Positions 1-4,435 of a DNA stretch of 64,000 bases are shown here, piece after piece (position 1 is the stretch's first letter; each line of letters begins with the position of its first letter). The notes under the pieces were generated by a model, which made no database searches, was not told the DNA's origin, and was given only the letters and a program-made list of their open reading frames with translations. The position numbers were made by a program, and so were the translations under genes. The DNA comes from an uncultured Gemmatimonadota bacterium (GTDB lineage: Bacteria; Gemmatimonadota; Gemmatimonadetes; Gemmatimonadales; Gemmatimonadaceae), in NCBI GenBank assembly GCA_902825965.1, contig CADEDA010000002.1, positions 124,001 through 188,000 of the forward strand, written 5' to 3'.

Positions 1-1285
1 GCCGCATGGCGAGCTTGACCACGTCCACGAAGCGGTCGATCTCGTCGACCGTCGTGTAGATGCTGGGCGTGATCCGGATGCCGCTGAACTCGGGGTGCAC
101 GATGGGGGTGTTCACGATGCGGTGGTTGGCGAGCATCCAGCTCCCGAGCTTCACCGGGTCGAGTCCGTCGACGGAGAGGAAGCCGATGGCGCCCGCCTTG
201 TCGGGCCCGAGCTCGGTGAGGACCTTCACGCGCGGCGAGTCCGCGAGCAGTGCCTTCGCCCAGCGATCGCGCAGGTAACGCAGCCGCGCGATCTTGCGGT
301 CCGCGCCGATGCCGCGGTGGAAGGTGATCGCGACCGAGACCGCGTTGAAGTTCGCCTGCGGGTGCGTGCCGATCTCCTCGTACTTCCGGACGTTGGCCTC
401 GCGCGACTTGTCGGAGCCCATCAGCGGCCAGAGGGTGGGGATCTTCGCCTTGCGCACGTACAGGAAGCCCGCCCCGATGGGCGCATGCAGCCACTTGTGC
501 AGCGAGGTCGCGTAGTAGTCGCACTCGAGTTCGTCGCGCGTGAACGGGAAGTGCGCGAAGGCGTGCGCCCCGTCGACGAACACCTCGATCCCGCGGGGGC
601 GCGCCATGCGCACCACGTCGCGGATCGGCAGGATCTGGCCGGTGAGGTTGGTGATGTGCGTGAGCTCGATGACCTTCGTCCGCGGGGTGATCGCGGCCTC
701 GAGGTTCCGGAGCAGCACCTTGGGGTCGGTGAGCGGCACCGGGAACGAGACCTGCTTGAGGACGATGCCCTCGCGGCGCTCGCGCTGCTGCCAGGTGGTG
801 ATCATCCGCCCGTAGTTCTGGTTGGTGATCAGCACCTCGTCGCCGCGCGCGAGGTCGATGCCGAGGATCATCGTCTCGAGCCCCTCCGAGGCGTTGCGGA
901 CGATCGCCATCTCCTCGGTGTCGCAGCCGAACTCCGCGGCGAGTTCGCGGCGCGTGCTCTCCATGCGCGGCTCGAGCACGCGCCAGTTGTGCTCCACCGG
1001 CAGCTCGTTGACGAACCGCAGGTCGCGGATCATCTGCTCGAGCACGTGCGTCGGCGTGGGCGAGATGCCGCCGTTGTTCAGGTTGATCATCGTGCGGTCC
1101 ATGTCGAACGCACGCTGGATGTGCGACCAGTACGATTCGTCGTCGGCGAGTGCGCCCGCACTGCGCGCACCGGCCACGGCCTCGGCCTTGAACAGCTGCG
1201 TGACCGCGCGCTCGGAGAGCATCGGGAGGGCGGTCCCGGCGCCGGCGAGTCCGGCGAGGAAGGAACGACGCGACGTGAGGGGCAC
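1..1285 (-). CDS. Class V aminotransferase family protein with Tat-type signal (C-terminus beyond window)
   Basis: PLP-dependent fold-type I enzyme of the class V / isopenicillin-N-epimerase-like group; the substrate cannot be told. It reads from a GTG at 1285 towards position 1 without a stop, so about 428 residues are visible and the C-terminus is missing. The N-terminus carries SRRSFLAGLAG, a twin-arginine motif followed by a hydrophobic stretch, suggesting folded export. NNGGISPTPTHVLEQ near residue 50 is the substrate and phosphate-loop region; VDGAHAFAHFP holds the PLP-ring Asp, and TSLHKW places the Schiff-base lysine at Lys264. It starts 24 bp after the stop of the barrel-like gene at 1310-2476 on the same strand, so it may be the last cistron of the sigma-factor operon. 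No Shine-Dalgarno is visible. Confidence 0.88.
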   Translation of the reverse strand, partial: MPLTSRRSFLAGLAGAGTALPMLSERAVTQLFKAEAVAGARSAGALADDESYWSHIQRAFDMDRTMINLNNGGISPTPTHVLEQMIRDLRFVNELPVEHNWRVLEPRMESTRRELAAEFGCDTEEMAIVRNASEGLETMILGIDLARGDEVLITNQNYGRMITTWQQRERREGIVLKQVSFPVPLTDPKVLLRNLEAAITPRTKVIELTHITNLTGQILPIRDVVRMARPRGIEVFVDGAHAFAHFPFTRDELECDYYATSLHKWLHAPIGAGFLYVRKAKIPTLWPLMGSDKSREANVRKYEEIGTHPQANFNAVSVAITFHRGIGADRKIARLRYLRDRWAKALLADSPRVKVLTELGPDKAGAIGFLSVDGLDPVKLGSWMLANHRIVNTPIVHPEFSGIRITPSIYTTVDEIDRFVDVVKLAMR

Positions 1286-1309: not shown

Positions 1310-2476
1310 CTAAGGTACCACGATCAGGCCCGACTCGCCTCCGAAGTCGTCACGCACGCGGGCCAGGTTCCGGGGGGCGCGCCACGGGCCCTGGTTGGTG
1401 CGCACCCCGATGTGGTACTTGCCCGAGCGCAGCCGGATGCGCGCGACCCAGTAGCTGCCTTCGCGCTCCATCGGCACCGGGCGCCACTCGGAGAAGTCGC
1501 CCGCGACCTCCACCTCGAGCCACTCGGCGGAGAAGACGCGCACCACGAGTTCGCCGCCGCCACCGCCCGCCAACGGTTCCACCGTCGCGTCGGCGATCGT
1601 CGAGCGCTGCATCACGGGCAACGGCTTGGGGCCCAGCGAGACGCGCAGCGACGCGGTGATGATGTCGGCCTGCGGCAGGCCGCGCACCGGGTCCGCGAGT
1701 TGCCGGCCGGCGCCGCCGATCAAGGCGACCCGATCCGTCAGTTGCAGCGTCGCGCTGCCGTACAGCGCGTTCTGGCTGAACTCGGCCCCGGCGATGGTCT
1801 GGCGGCGCGTGAGCGAGGCCGTGATGTCGTGCGGGCCGCCGCGGAGTTGCAGCACGAGCTGCGCGTCCTGGAACTCGAACGGCCCGCTCTCGTTCTCCAG
1901 CAACAGGCCCGCCGTCTCGAACAGCAGCGCGTCGGTGGCGTACAGGCGCGACAGCGAGAGGCTGCCGTAGAGGAATCCGAACCGGGACCATCCGCCGAGG
2001 TCGAACGCCGACGCCGCATTCCAGCGGGTGCCGCGCAGCGTGGTGGCCGCGGTGGCGCCGCCCCACGCGCCGCCGTTCTCCAACACGTAGTGCTGGCGCG
2101 CGAACCCGTTGGTGTTCCCCCCGTCCCCTGCGCCGCTCAACGAGAAGACCGCACCCGCCACCCCGAGGTCGGTGCGGAAGTTGGAGCGTCGCCCCCACGG
2201 CAACGACAACGCCGCCACGCCCTGCGCGGCGGCGAGCGAGTCCCGGGCGTACGTGAGGTTGCCGCTGGTGTAGAGCGTCCAGCGCTCGGTGGGGAGTCGC
2301 CAGAAGATGCCGAACAGCGCCGCGTCGGACGCTTCCTCACCGCCACGCGCACCGAGTCCGGGCTGGCGGAGGCGTGCGGCCCCCGCCTCCAGCCGGACCT
2401 CCGGCAACGCTTGTGCGGCGACGCTGCGCGTCGCCGCACCGATCAGCAGCAGCCCCAGGGCCGCGTGCCGGATCAC
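1310..2476 (-). CDS. Secreted outer-membrane-barrel-like protein with C-terminal glycogen-binding-like E-set domain
   Basis: No named family recognised for the main body. The protein has 388 residues and a GTG start. Residues 1-21 form a signal peptide ending SVAAQ. Residues about 22-290 are alternating polar/hydrophobic strands rich in Gly, Tyr and Trp, as in outer-membrane beta-barrels. Residues about 300-388 resemble the AMPK/CBM48 E-set fold (VEVAGDFSEW, then a G-x-Y-x-x-x-x-x-x-L-x-x-G-x-Y pattern), the same domain type found at the end of the upstream gene at 3134-3724. It is separated by 1 bp from the stop of the preceding cistron, so it is part of the sigma operon. Inference: an envelope protein, possibly glycan-related, controlled by the ECF sigma factor. 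Confidence 0.8.
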   Translation of the reverse strand: MIRHAALGLLLIGAATRSVAAQALPEVRLEAGAARLRQPGLGARGGEEASDAALFGIFWRLPTERWTLYTSGNLTYARDSLAAAQGVAALSLPWGRRSNFRTDLGVAGAVFSLSGAGDGGNTNGFARQHYVLENGGAWGGATAATTLRGTRWNAASAFDLGGWSRFGFLYGSLSLSRLYATDALLFETAGLLLENESGPFEFQDAQLVLQLRGGPHDITASLTRRQTIAGAEFSQNALYGSATLQLTDRVALIGGAGRQLADPVRGLPQADIITASLRVSLGPKPLPVMQRSTIADATVEPLAGGGGGELVVRVFSAEWLEVEVAGDFSEWRPVPMEREGSYWVARIRLRSGKYHIGVRTNQGPWRAPRNLARVRDDFGGESGLIVVP

Positions 2477-2477
2477 G

Positions 2478-3137
2478 TCACCGTGGGGGCCTCTGGCCAG
2501 TGGGAGCGAGACTGGCGCCGGCAGCAGGGGAATTGAGGAGCGACATCACACCTCGGGCCCGGACCTCGAGCGCCGCATCGGGCGCCAATCCCGCGGCGAC
2601 GTCGGATTGCACCGACGATCCCAGCGCGGCGATCTGCGAAGGGGTCGCCCCCTTCGCCATGAGTGAGGTCAGGCGCTCCAAGGCACGCGACGCAGGGATG
2701 CCGCGCGCGACGAGCTCGGTCATCACATCGAGTGGCATCACCACCGATTGATCGGCCGGCCAGGCGGCGCGGATCTTCTTCACCATCGGCGCAGGCACAC
2801 CGGCGCGGAGCGCATCCGCACCCGACGCGACCTCGGCCGCCGAGGGCGAGGGAGCCAGAAGGGCTCGCGCCTGCTCGAGGCGCTTCGCCAACGAAGACAC
2901 GGCGTCCCGAATCTGCTCCCCGGTCGCCTGCTTCGTGACACCTTCCATCGCCTTCGCGACGAGGGGCTGCGTGGGCAGGCCCTTCGATTCAGCCCGAGCG
3001 ATCTCCCGCTGCACGGCCGAACGCGTCTTCACATCGGCGATGGGCAGCACCGACGTCCCCTGCGCGAGCAGCGGGGCGGCGGACACGCTGGCGAGCACCA
3101 GCGCGACGAGAGTGGGGACTCTGCGATGCATGTTCAT
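2478..3137 (-). CDS. Secreted helical protein of unknown function in sigma-factor operon
   Basis: 219 residues, not recognised. MNMHRRVPTLVALVLASVSA starts a signal peptide cleaved near LLAQG. The rest is Ala-rich and predicted helical, with repeated hydrophobic heptad-like stretches (VSSLAKRLEQARALL, VMTELVARGIPASRALERLTSLM), and no Cys or obvious catalytic motif. The ATG at 3137 overlaps the TGA of the upstream E-set membrane protein in an ATGA junction, which argues for translational coupling and fixes the start well downstream of a longer possible frame. Its position between the putative anti-sigma factor and the barrel-like protein suggests a periplasmic accessory role; this is inference from context only. 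Confidence 0.8.
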   Translation of the reverse strand: MNMHRRVPTLVALVLASVSAAPLLAQGTSVLPIADVKTRSAVQREIARAESKGLPTQPLVAKAMEGVTKQATGEQIRDAVSSLAKRLEQARALLAPSPSAAEVASGADALRAGVPAPMVKKIRAAWPADQSVVMPLDVMTELVARGIPASRALERLTSLMAKGATPSQIAALGSSVQSDVAAGLAPDAALEVRARGVMSLLNSPAAGASLAPTGQRPPR

Positions 3138-3724
3138 CGGGCGAAGACCATCACGACGGAACCCTCTTGACCGTAGTCCGCGTCGCCCGACTTGGGCGCG
3201 CGCGGATCGGCCACCACCAATGTACCGTCGATCAGGAAGGCGTACACGTGCCGGCCCGGCGGGAGCGGGACCGTCACCGTCCAGACCCCGGTCTCCAGGC
3301 GGTCCAGCGGGGTCACCCCGCCCTGCCAATCATTGAAATCGCCCACCAGCGAGACCGACTCGGCCTTGCCGTCGTACACGAACTGCGTCTGCACCAGACC
3401 GTCGGCCACGTCCGCGACCCGCTGCGCCGGGAACGCGCTGCTGCCGGCGGGCCGCGCCGCCACGGCCGGCGCGGCCGGCTCGACGACCACGCCGCGCGTG
3501 ACGAAGCCCAGCAACAGGGCCACCGCCGCCAGACCGGTCGCACGCGCCGGCGTCACCGCCGCGCCGCGCCAGGCCTCCACCGCCCGCTGCCACAGCGACG
3601 GCCGGGGTGACTGCCACACCGCCTGCAATACCTGCGCGACCGCGCGCGGCTCCGGCGCCGCGGCCGGATCGGCCCGCAGCGTCTCGCGCACCCGCGCAAT
3701 CAGGAGATCCCGTTCATCGCTCAT
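3134..3724 (-). CDS. Probable anti-sigma factor: one-TM protein with C-terminal glycogen-binding (CBM48/AMPK-like) E-set domain
   Basis: 196 residues. Residues 1-60 are a cytoplasmic helical region in the place of an anti-sigma domain, although no ZAS zinc motif is visible. Residues about 62-82 (ATGLAAVALLLGFVTRGVVV) form one membrane helix. After an Ala/Pro linker, residues about 113-196 are an early-set domain like those of AMPK-beta and isoamylase/CBM48 proteins: VSLVGDFNDW, a GVWTVTVPLPPG strand pair, then YAFLIDG and DPRAP. The start overlaps the sigma gene by 11 bp and the stop overlaps the next gene as ATGA. Membrane topology plus linkage to an ECF sigma gene supports a regulator whose periplasmic sensor may bind a glycan; ligand binding is inference. 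Confidence 0.82.
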   Translation of the reverse strand: MSDERDLLIARVRETLRADPAAAPEPRAVAQVLQAVWQSPRPSLWQRAVEAWRGAAVTPARATGLAAVALLLGFVTRGVVVEPAAPAVAARPAGSSAFPAQRVADVADGLVQTQFVYDGKAESVSLVGDFNDWQGGVTPLDRLETGVWTVTVPLPPGRHVYAFLIDGTLVVADPRAPKSGDADYGQEGSVVMVFAR

Positions 3725-4283
3725 GCTGCATCACCTCGGTAAGACGTGCGCGCAACACATCACACGCGCGTTTGACTCGCATCCGGAGCGCACTGAGGCC
3801 GACACCCGTGACCGCGGCGATGTCCTCGTACGCCATGTCCTCCACGTGCCGGAGCAGGAAGGCCTCCCGCTGCTCCGCCGGCAGGGTCGCCAGGATCCGA
3901 TGGATCTCCTCGGTCCAGTCGCGTTCCGCCACCTCGATCGGTGCGTTCCCCCGCTCGGGGACATCACCGTACTGCACCACCGCGGCATGTCGTCGCCGCT
4001 TCTCCATCAGGCTGCGGCACCGGTTCGCGAGGATGCGGAAGAGCCAGGGCTCGAACCGCGCGTCGTCGCGGAACCGCGAGAGGTTGTGATAGACCCGTAC
4101 GAACGTGTCCTGCACCGCCTCCTCCGCGTCCTCGCGGTTGCCGACCATATGGAGGGCGAACCGGAGCGAGCGCGGATACAGCAAGTCCACCATCTGGGCG
4201 AACGCCTGCCGATCGCCTGCCTTGGCACGCAGGGGAAGGGCCGGGTCGATCGAGGAGCTGGCGGGCGTGTGGTCGTTGAGCAC
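3714..4283 (-). CDS. RNA polymerase ECF-type sigma factor
   Basis: Sigma-70 family extracytoplasmic-function factor of about 189 residues from the GTG at 4283. Region 2 reads AQMVDLLYPRSLRFALHMVG then NREDAEEAVQDTFVRVYHNL, the core-binding and -10 recognition helices. Region 4 reads LPAEQREAFLLRHVEDMAYE followed by DIAAVTGVGLSALRMRVKRA, a helix-turn-helix for the -35 element. Longer frames start at ATG 4352 or TTG 4409, but these add a low-complexity extension and run into a putative divergent regulatory region. The next gene, a membrane E-set protein, overlaps its 3' end by 11 bp, the usual sigma/anti-sigma arrangement. It is divergent from the aldehyde dehydrogenase gene. Confidence 0.93.
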   Translation of the reverse strand: MLNDHTPASSSIDPALPLRAKAGDRQAFAQMVDLLYPRSLRFALHMVGNREDAEEAVQDTFVRVYHNLSRFRDDARFEPWLFRILANRCRSLMEKRRRHAAVVQYGDVPERGNAPIEVAERDWTEEIHRILATLPAEQREAFLLRHVEDMAYEDIAAVTGVGLSALRMRVKRACDVLRARLTEVMQHER

Positions 4284-4396
4284 AGTGCGGGGAGTATGCC
4301 CCGCCGTGCTCGGTCCGCGCCACGCCGCGTCGCCTGGAACCGCCCCATCCATCGGTGTCGCCGTCACATCCCGTAGTACCCGGAGCGCGCTGCAAG

Positions 4397-4435
4397 TGTC
4401 ACATTTCAAACGAGATGCACGTGCCCATTGTGACA
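4397..4435. promoter_or_regulatory. Candidate operator: TGTCACA/TGTGACA inverted repeat in divergent intergenic region
   Basis: A perfect 7-bp inverted repeat, TGTCACA at 4397-4403 and TGTGACA at 4429-4435, has its half-sites about three helical turns apart. It sits between the divergently transcribed ECF sigma gene and the aldehyde dehydrogenase gene, if the latter starts at 4469. No regulator is identified; function is inferred from symmetry and position. Confidence 0.3.

Follow-up and report, generated by a model that had tools for sequence, protein, structure and literature searches.

A candidate envelope-spanning ECF sigma factor cassette of Gemmatimonadota, with AMPK-type E-set domains in a putative anti-sigma factor and in a predicted porin-like barrel

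What kind of signal could reach a sigma factor whose operon encodes two further proteins that end in domains of the glycogen-binding type? This question is raised by a four-gene operon on the minus strand (positions 1310-4367) of a 64,000-nucleotide stretch of contig CADEDA010000002.1 (positions 124,001 to 188,000 of the forward strand; assembly GCA_902825965.1) from an uncultured Gemmatimonadota bacterium, here called the window. The operon encodes an extracytoplasmic function (ECF) sigma factor (SIG), a putative anti-sigma factor (ANT), a secreted helical protein (HEL) and a predicted outer-membrane barrel (BAR). A first-pass annotation of this DNA had placed four overlapping or 1-bp-spaced genes here, and the reading frames bore this out, with overlaps of 11 bp between SIG and ANT and of 4 bp (ATGA) between ANT and HEL, and a gap of 1 bp between HEL and BAR. 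We consider it probable that the operon is a dedicated, autoregulated ECF sigma/anti-sigma cassette which spans the cell envelope.

SIG has regions 2 and 4 of the sigma-70 family but no region 3, in a protein of about 200 amino acids, as is the case for ECF sigma factors (PF04542, Sigma70_r2, 58.4 bits; PF08281, Sigma70_r4_2, 52.7 bits), and it scored 83.1 bits against TIGR02937 (cut-off 42.9). ANT begins with a short cytoplasmic N-terminus, followed by a hydropathy maximum that marks a single helix at approximately residues 63–81. Its periplasmic E-set (residues 111–173) exceeded the Pfam cut-offs for both AMPK1_CBM (PF16561, 40.3 bits, cut-off 26.8) and CBM_48 (PF02922, 40.5 bits). AMPK1_CBM was matched by 46/46 members of the ANT family at E <= 0.1, and a profile built from the 46 members matched the glycogen-binding domain of AMPK-beta1 (1z0n) at E 1.7e-12.

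An AlphaFold2 model of BAR (predicted local distance difference test score, pLDDT, 79) showed a 14-strand barrel at residues 26–281, a flexible linker and a separate beta-domain at residues 298–387. The best alignment of the barrel was to CymA, a cyclodextrin porin (Z 21.6, root mean square deviation 3.1, 241 residues), and it also aligned with OmpG (Z 20.1), which places the predicted model in the 14-strand fold of the OmpG/CymA-type monomeric porins, a fold that by itself shows no function. BAR is predicted to sit in the outer membrane as a porin-like pore. Its E-set alone fell below the AMPK1_CBM cut-off (21.2 versus 26.8 bits), and a 41-member BAR profile matched Sip2 (E 1.3e-4) and AMPK-beta1; the family profile, together with the AlphaFold2 domain, supports the assignment of this terminal domain as an AMPK-type E-set. 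The presence of an E-set in both ANT and BAR, as proposed in the first-pass annotation, is thus supported. In the whole 4.07-Mb genome AMPK1_CBM was found in three places only, two of them in this operon and the third in a paralogous cassette of the same four genes on contig C7. A chance E-set resemblance was ruled out, as two of the only three matches in the genome lie in one operon.

HEL carries an N-terminal hydrophobic signal, and its AlphaFold2 model (pLDDT 88) was all-alpha with nine helices. Its best fold matches (designed helical-repeat proteins and MTERF-like chains) reached a Z of at most 11, which a common helical arrangement can attain, and were discarded. The E-sets, the outer-membrane-type barrel and the secreted helical protein that the first-pass annotation had described were all recovered in this way. 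Because the number of BAR strands is even, and assuming normal porin topology, the E-set of BAR would face the periplasm, where that of ANT also lies. This shared placement suggests contact or a relay between the two domains, rather than two separate sensors.

ANT was present in 51 of the 61 genomes searched, which range from genus to order level. For comparison of the neighboring genes we used 61 cassettes, namely the window and 60 ANT matches with flanking DNA; this set was thus selected by ANT and covers the same taxonomic range. SIG was found in 60 of them, HEL in 60 and BAR in 53, and the neighborhood is thus conserved; where SIG or HEL is lacking, and in three of the cassettes that lack BAR, the gap falls at a contig end. 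The genes are closely spaced or overlapping, with an overlap of SIG and ANT in most cassettes. The gene order was mostly SIG-ANT-HEL-BAR; five cassettes instead have BAR 5' of SIG, and in a few it precedes HEL. Up to about eight cassette copies were seen in one Gemmatimonadota genome. Across the phylum, the ANT profile was matched in 204/298 genomes, where the weakest matches may be other CBM48 proteins, and the HEL profile, which is independent of the E-set, in 123/200; the genomes without a HEL match and those without an ANT match largely coincide. A scan of a species-level genome collection gave six loci with SIG, ANT and HEL-like genes in hosts labelled as other phyla: Salinivenus lutea and metagenome-assembled genomes (MAGs) of Eisenbacteria (two), Nitrospirae, Nitrospira and Deltaproteobacteria, with mis-binning possible for the MAG loci. 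A phylum-specific oddity was ruled out by these cassettes.

The four genes co-evolve. Tree distances of the four families correlated at 0.70–0.84 for all pairs, and when partners were shuffled within multi-cassette genomes the observed correlation was reached in 0/2000 trials for every pair, so the co-evolution holds even with re-pairing restricted to within genomes. At one locus (L080:3763-5949, G036:C67) SIG, ANT and HEL form one continuous open reading frame, in which HEL directly follows the periplasmic E-set; the fusion comes from a draft assembly, in which sequence errors are possible. Because the genes overlap, co-evolve and are naturally fused with HEL, we infer that ANT is the anti-sigma factor of SIG, in agreement with the pairing of sigma factor and membrane protein suggested earlier. 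Were ANT no anti-sigma factor, SIG would merely lie beside the envelope operon that it transcribes, made up of a pore, a helical protein and an E-set membrane protein. Such an arrangement would suit an ANT with no recognised anti-sigma domain, but it is at odds with the gene overlap, the within-genome co-evolution and the SIG-ANT-HEL fusion. The single-pass topology of ANT is also typical of ECF anti-sigma factors, and in some distant members of the ANT family the N-terminus is of a YLDGEL/YLDGDP type which resembles class I anti-sigma domains (a resemblance only). We regard this explanation as very unlikely.

Directly upstream of SIG lies a predicted promoter, TGTGAC-N16-GGGTAC (pattern match G000:C2:128376-128404). 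The motif GTGAC-N15-17-GGGT was found upstream of SIG in 10/13 cassettes of the window's genus and in 21/45 other cassettes; among windows drawn at random from these loci, about 1% contained it. This conserved motif leads us to predict that SIG autoregulates its own operon. The sigma gene of the first-pass annotation was present and of the ECF type, but its start at 4283 (GTG 4281-4283) is probably misplaced. The SIG frame is open upstream to an in-frame GTG at 4365-4367, about 8–9 nt 3' of the -10 element, and the additional residues are conserved in the genus. An in-frame start codon lay 12 nt or less from the -10 element in 31/40 cases, versus 35% for random positions. Start codons this close to the -10 element suggest that SIG transcripts are leaderless, which in turn makes GTG 4365-4367 the probable start of SIG.

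The regulon was sought in the window's own genome by promoter pattern only, with the reversed pattern as control. The strict pattern WTGTGAC-N15-17-GGGTWH gave three sites and no control sites: one at the window cassette, one at its paralog and one upstream of a SusC-like TonB receptor with Plug and CarboxypepD_reg domains. Next after this receptor comes a lipoprotein in the SusD position, which was not recognised by Pfam (receptor and lipoprotein, L177:3319-6993, G000:C11). A near-identical pattern gave 16 sites and 0 control sites in 17 genomes of the genus; the additional sites in the genus are mostly intragenic. A recognisable site stood at a comparable upstream position in 9/13 SusC homologues, where the common placement of the sites and their drifting spacer are the evidence that does not depend on how the sites were chosen. 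From these matches we predict that the SusC-like TonB receptor operon belongs to the SIG regulon in the window's genus. A family-wide pattern, TGTGAC-N15-17-GGGTYT, was unspecific (28 sites in 39 genomes, versus a comparable count for the reversed control) and was abandoned. Several SusC orthologs also have a CRP-like palindrome, TGTGA-N6-TCACA, just downstream of the site.

Starting from the observed gene content, domains, co-inheritance and promoter motif, we infer the anti-sigma activity, the contact between BAR, HEL and ANT, the signal and the release step as follows. ANT would use its short cytoplasmic N-terminus to keep SIG at the inner membrane, BAR would form a 14-strand pore in the outer membrane and extend its E-set into the periplasm, and HEL would act as a periplasmic helical partner between BAR and ANT. 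The trigger would be a change in the state of BAR/HEL, arising either from a ligand, within the pore or on the BAR E-set, or from failed assembly of BAR. Passed on to the periplasmic E-set of ANT, this change would free SIG, which would then transcribe its own operon, by prediction as a leaderless message, from the TGTGAC-N16-GGGTAC promoter; in the window's genus the SusC-like receptor operon would probably be transcribed as well. Repression would return once fresh ANT, HEL and BAR had been made. A more specific version is that of a TonB-independent relay, made up of a pore and an anti-sigma factor with paired periplasmic E-sets and a helical adaptor, in which a ligand at the pore or E-set directly releases SIG, and which has been duplicated into several sensors per cell. 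We put forward this version tentatively, with more doubt than confidence.

Several results weigh against the reading of the operon as a sigma/anti-sigma cassette of this kind. The N-terminus of ANT matched no Pfam anti-sigma family among the 46 members, and no solved anti-sigma domain was found among its PDB matches. HEL had no informative relative by sequence or structure search. Five cassettes whose context is complete (L066, L080, L083, L087 and L092) lack BAR, which is therefore not essential to the core. Lastly, several orthologs carry a degenerate form of the SusC promoter site, and the ortholog sites were chosen as best matches, which makes their column conservation partly circular.

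The first-pass annotation had read the operon as an envelope glycan-sensing module. Glucan binding by rat AMPK-beta1 requires W100, K126, W133 and N150 (PMC4032982), whereas starch binding persists in plant AKINbeta2, which has the Trp pair but neither the Lys nor the Asn (PMC4032982). We compared these ligand residues in 110 E-sets (59 from ANT and 51 from BAR). W100 was present in all 110 and K126 in none. W133 was kept in 31/59 ANT (0/13 in the window's genus) and 49/51 BAR domains, and N150 in 21/59 ANT (again 0/13 in the genus) and 0/51 BAR domains. In the window itself, ANT keeps W100 only and BAR keeps W100 and W133, and the full AMPK-beta set of ligand residues is thus incomplete in these E-sets. 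Judging by these residues, the E-set of BAR could bind a glucan, and ANT in the window's genus probably lacks AMPK-like glucan binding. Among the families listed in the Pfam tables of neighboring genes (the first 25 out of 43 in one table and out of 36 in another) there were no carbohydrate-active enzymes, and a polysaccharide utilisation locus was rejected on the same grounds. The glucan residues lost from ANT and the lack of such enzymes among the listed neighbors favor a relay via protein contacts.

If the module did sense glucan, both E-sets would bind an alpha-glucan or related oligosaccharide entering through BAR, and SIG, once active, would increase uptake. Both E-sets are indeed of the AMPK/CBM48 type, BAR keeps both stacking Trp residues in 49–51 of 51 domains (the pair with which AKINbeta2 binds starch; PMC4032982), the closest barrel is that of a cyclodextrin porin, and the SusC-like receptor carries the cassette promoter. 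However, the universal loss of K126, the genus ANTs without W133 and N150 and the absence of carbohydrate-active enzymes among the listed families all speak against it, and the likeness to CymA is tempered by an identity of 9%, since 14-strand porins are alike whatever their substrate. We think glucan sensing by both E-sets unlikely. Of the original reading the envelope signalling layout is supported, while its glycan part is weakly supported; one possible input to the relay would be a small ligand at BAR, whether a glucan or some other.

The failed-assembly trigger could also stand on its own, as an envelope or outer-membrane-assembly monitor similar to RseA/RseB. Here HEL and the ANT E-set would protect the anti-sigma factor, and BAR that had failed to assemble, or a free BAR E-set, would displace them in the periplasm, so that SIG is released. 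Barrel, periplasmic helper and anti-sigma factor are encoded together, the predicted regulon is very small, the E-sets are conserved though their glucan contacts are not, and RpoE of E. coli reacts to outer-membrane protein defects (PMC8103513). Less easily accommodated are the five complete cassettes without BAR, a cassette without any DegS-like or RseB-like gene, and a predicted regulon in which no chaperone or protease gene was seen. We regard such a monitor as conceivable but doubtful.

The proposed sigma/anti-sigma cassette shares parts with several known systems. The FecI/FecR/FecA relay consists of a TonB-dependent receptor with a signalling domain together with FecR. Like this system and the Bacteroidota ECF-FecR-SusCD systems, the cassette would relay from the outer to the inner membrane to an ECF sigma factor, and a SusC-like receptor is found in its predicted regulon. 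However, BAR is predicted to be a 14-strand barrel of porin type that ends in an E-set. Pfam found in it neither the plug nor the TonB-receptor domain of a FecA-type partner, and did not recognise ANT as FecR. BAR resembles OmpG and CymA in its barrel, but at about 9% identity, and adds a C-terminal E-set and an operonic sigma/anti-sigma pair. The E-sets of ANT and BAR share the fold of the glycogen-binding domain of AMPK-beta/Sip2, but always lack Lys126 and in part Asn150 and Trp133, and are placed in a bacterial periplasm.

With RpoE/RseA/RseB of E. coli the cassette would have in common an ECF sigma factor, a single-pass anti-sigma factor, a periplasmic partner, an outer-membrane-protein signal and a three-compartment layout. 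It differs in that an anti-sigma domain is recognised in RseA, which has no E-set, that RseB is not a helical protein, and that the RpoE system has a large stress regulon and an outer-membrane protein encoded outside the operon (this comparison draws on general knowledge and PMC8103513; that with FecI/FecR/FecA on general knowledge). SigI/RsgI of Clostridium thermocellum also pairs a sigma factor with a membrane anti-sigma factor that has an external carbohydrate-binding module, with several paralogous pairs per genome (PMC12203970). Yet SigI is not an ECF sigma factor as is the partner here, the system serves a Gram-positive cell surface without an outer-membrane pore or helical partner, and the listed RsgI sensor domains include CBM3, CBM42, PA14 and GH10 but not CBM48 (PMC12203970). 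ANT gave no match to the RsgI family in Pfam (window protein and 46 members). In the literature we found no description of this composition, which may be listed unnamed as an ECF group, and no paper on an anti-sigma factor with AMPK1_CBM, on Gemmatimonas with an isoamylase early set, or on a link between ECF and CBM48.

The cassette looks like an undescribed way of passing a signal across the envelope. A porin-like protein and an anti-sigma factor with one type of domain, kept together and duplicated across a phylum, would, if true, be a third route. Gemmatimonadota is a phylum with little genetics; the predicted promoter, the very small predicted regulon and the copy in the cultured Salinivenus lutea make the proposal directly testable.

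Table 1. Features of the operon and its surroundings (window positions).
Feature	Position	Strand	Basis
SIG, ECF sigma factor (sigma2 and sigma4), from the probable start	3714..4367	-	Sigma70_r2, Sigma70_r4_2, TIGR02937
ANT, putative anti-sigma factor, one transmembrane helix and periplasmic CBM48/AMPK1_CBM E-set	3134..3724	-	PF16561, PF02922
HEL, secreted nine-helix protein (all-alpha), predicted to be periplasmic	2478..3137	-	signal, AlphaFold2
BAR, predicted 14-strand outer-membrane barrel, linker and C-terminal E-set	1310..2476	-	AlphaFold2, profile
-35 element TGTGAC (predicted), sigma-operon promoter	4398..4403	-	sequence, motif conservation, pattern match
-10 element GGGTAC (predicted), spacer to -35 of 16 nt	4376..4381	-	motif, start-codon position
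Class-V aminotransferase-like protein, twin-arginine translocation (Tat)-like signal	1..1285	-	end beyond window

The aminotransferase-like gene lies on the same strand as BAR and starts approximately 25 bp after it. It is a genus-level neighbor outside the core module, possibly co-transcribed with BAR. In the window's genus the gene 3' of BAR is usually of this type, class-V aminotransferase-like with a Tat-like signal. Class-V aminotransferases made up 8/50 downstream neighbors of the cassettes in the Pfam table of neighbors, and the identities to the first member (69–87%) point to L037, L038, L039, L041, L043, L044 and L048 as cassettes bearing one. In the approximately 8 cassettes with an aminotransferase-like gene after BAR, mostly of the window's genus, an EVE-domain gene then comes next. 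Three cassettes without BAR (L066:2598-4451, L083:5793-7556 and L087:5608-7359) have an M14 zinc carboxypeptidase-family gene directly after HEL, and a second HEL-family gene follows BAR in L062 and L078. Upstream neighbors included DUF4382 (6/56) and CarboxypepD_reg (6/56).

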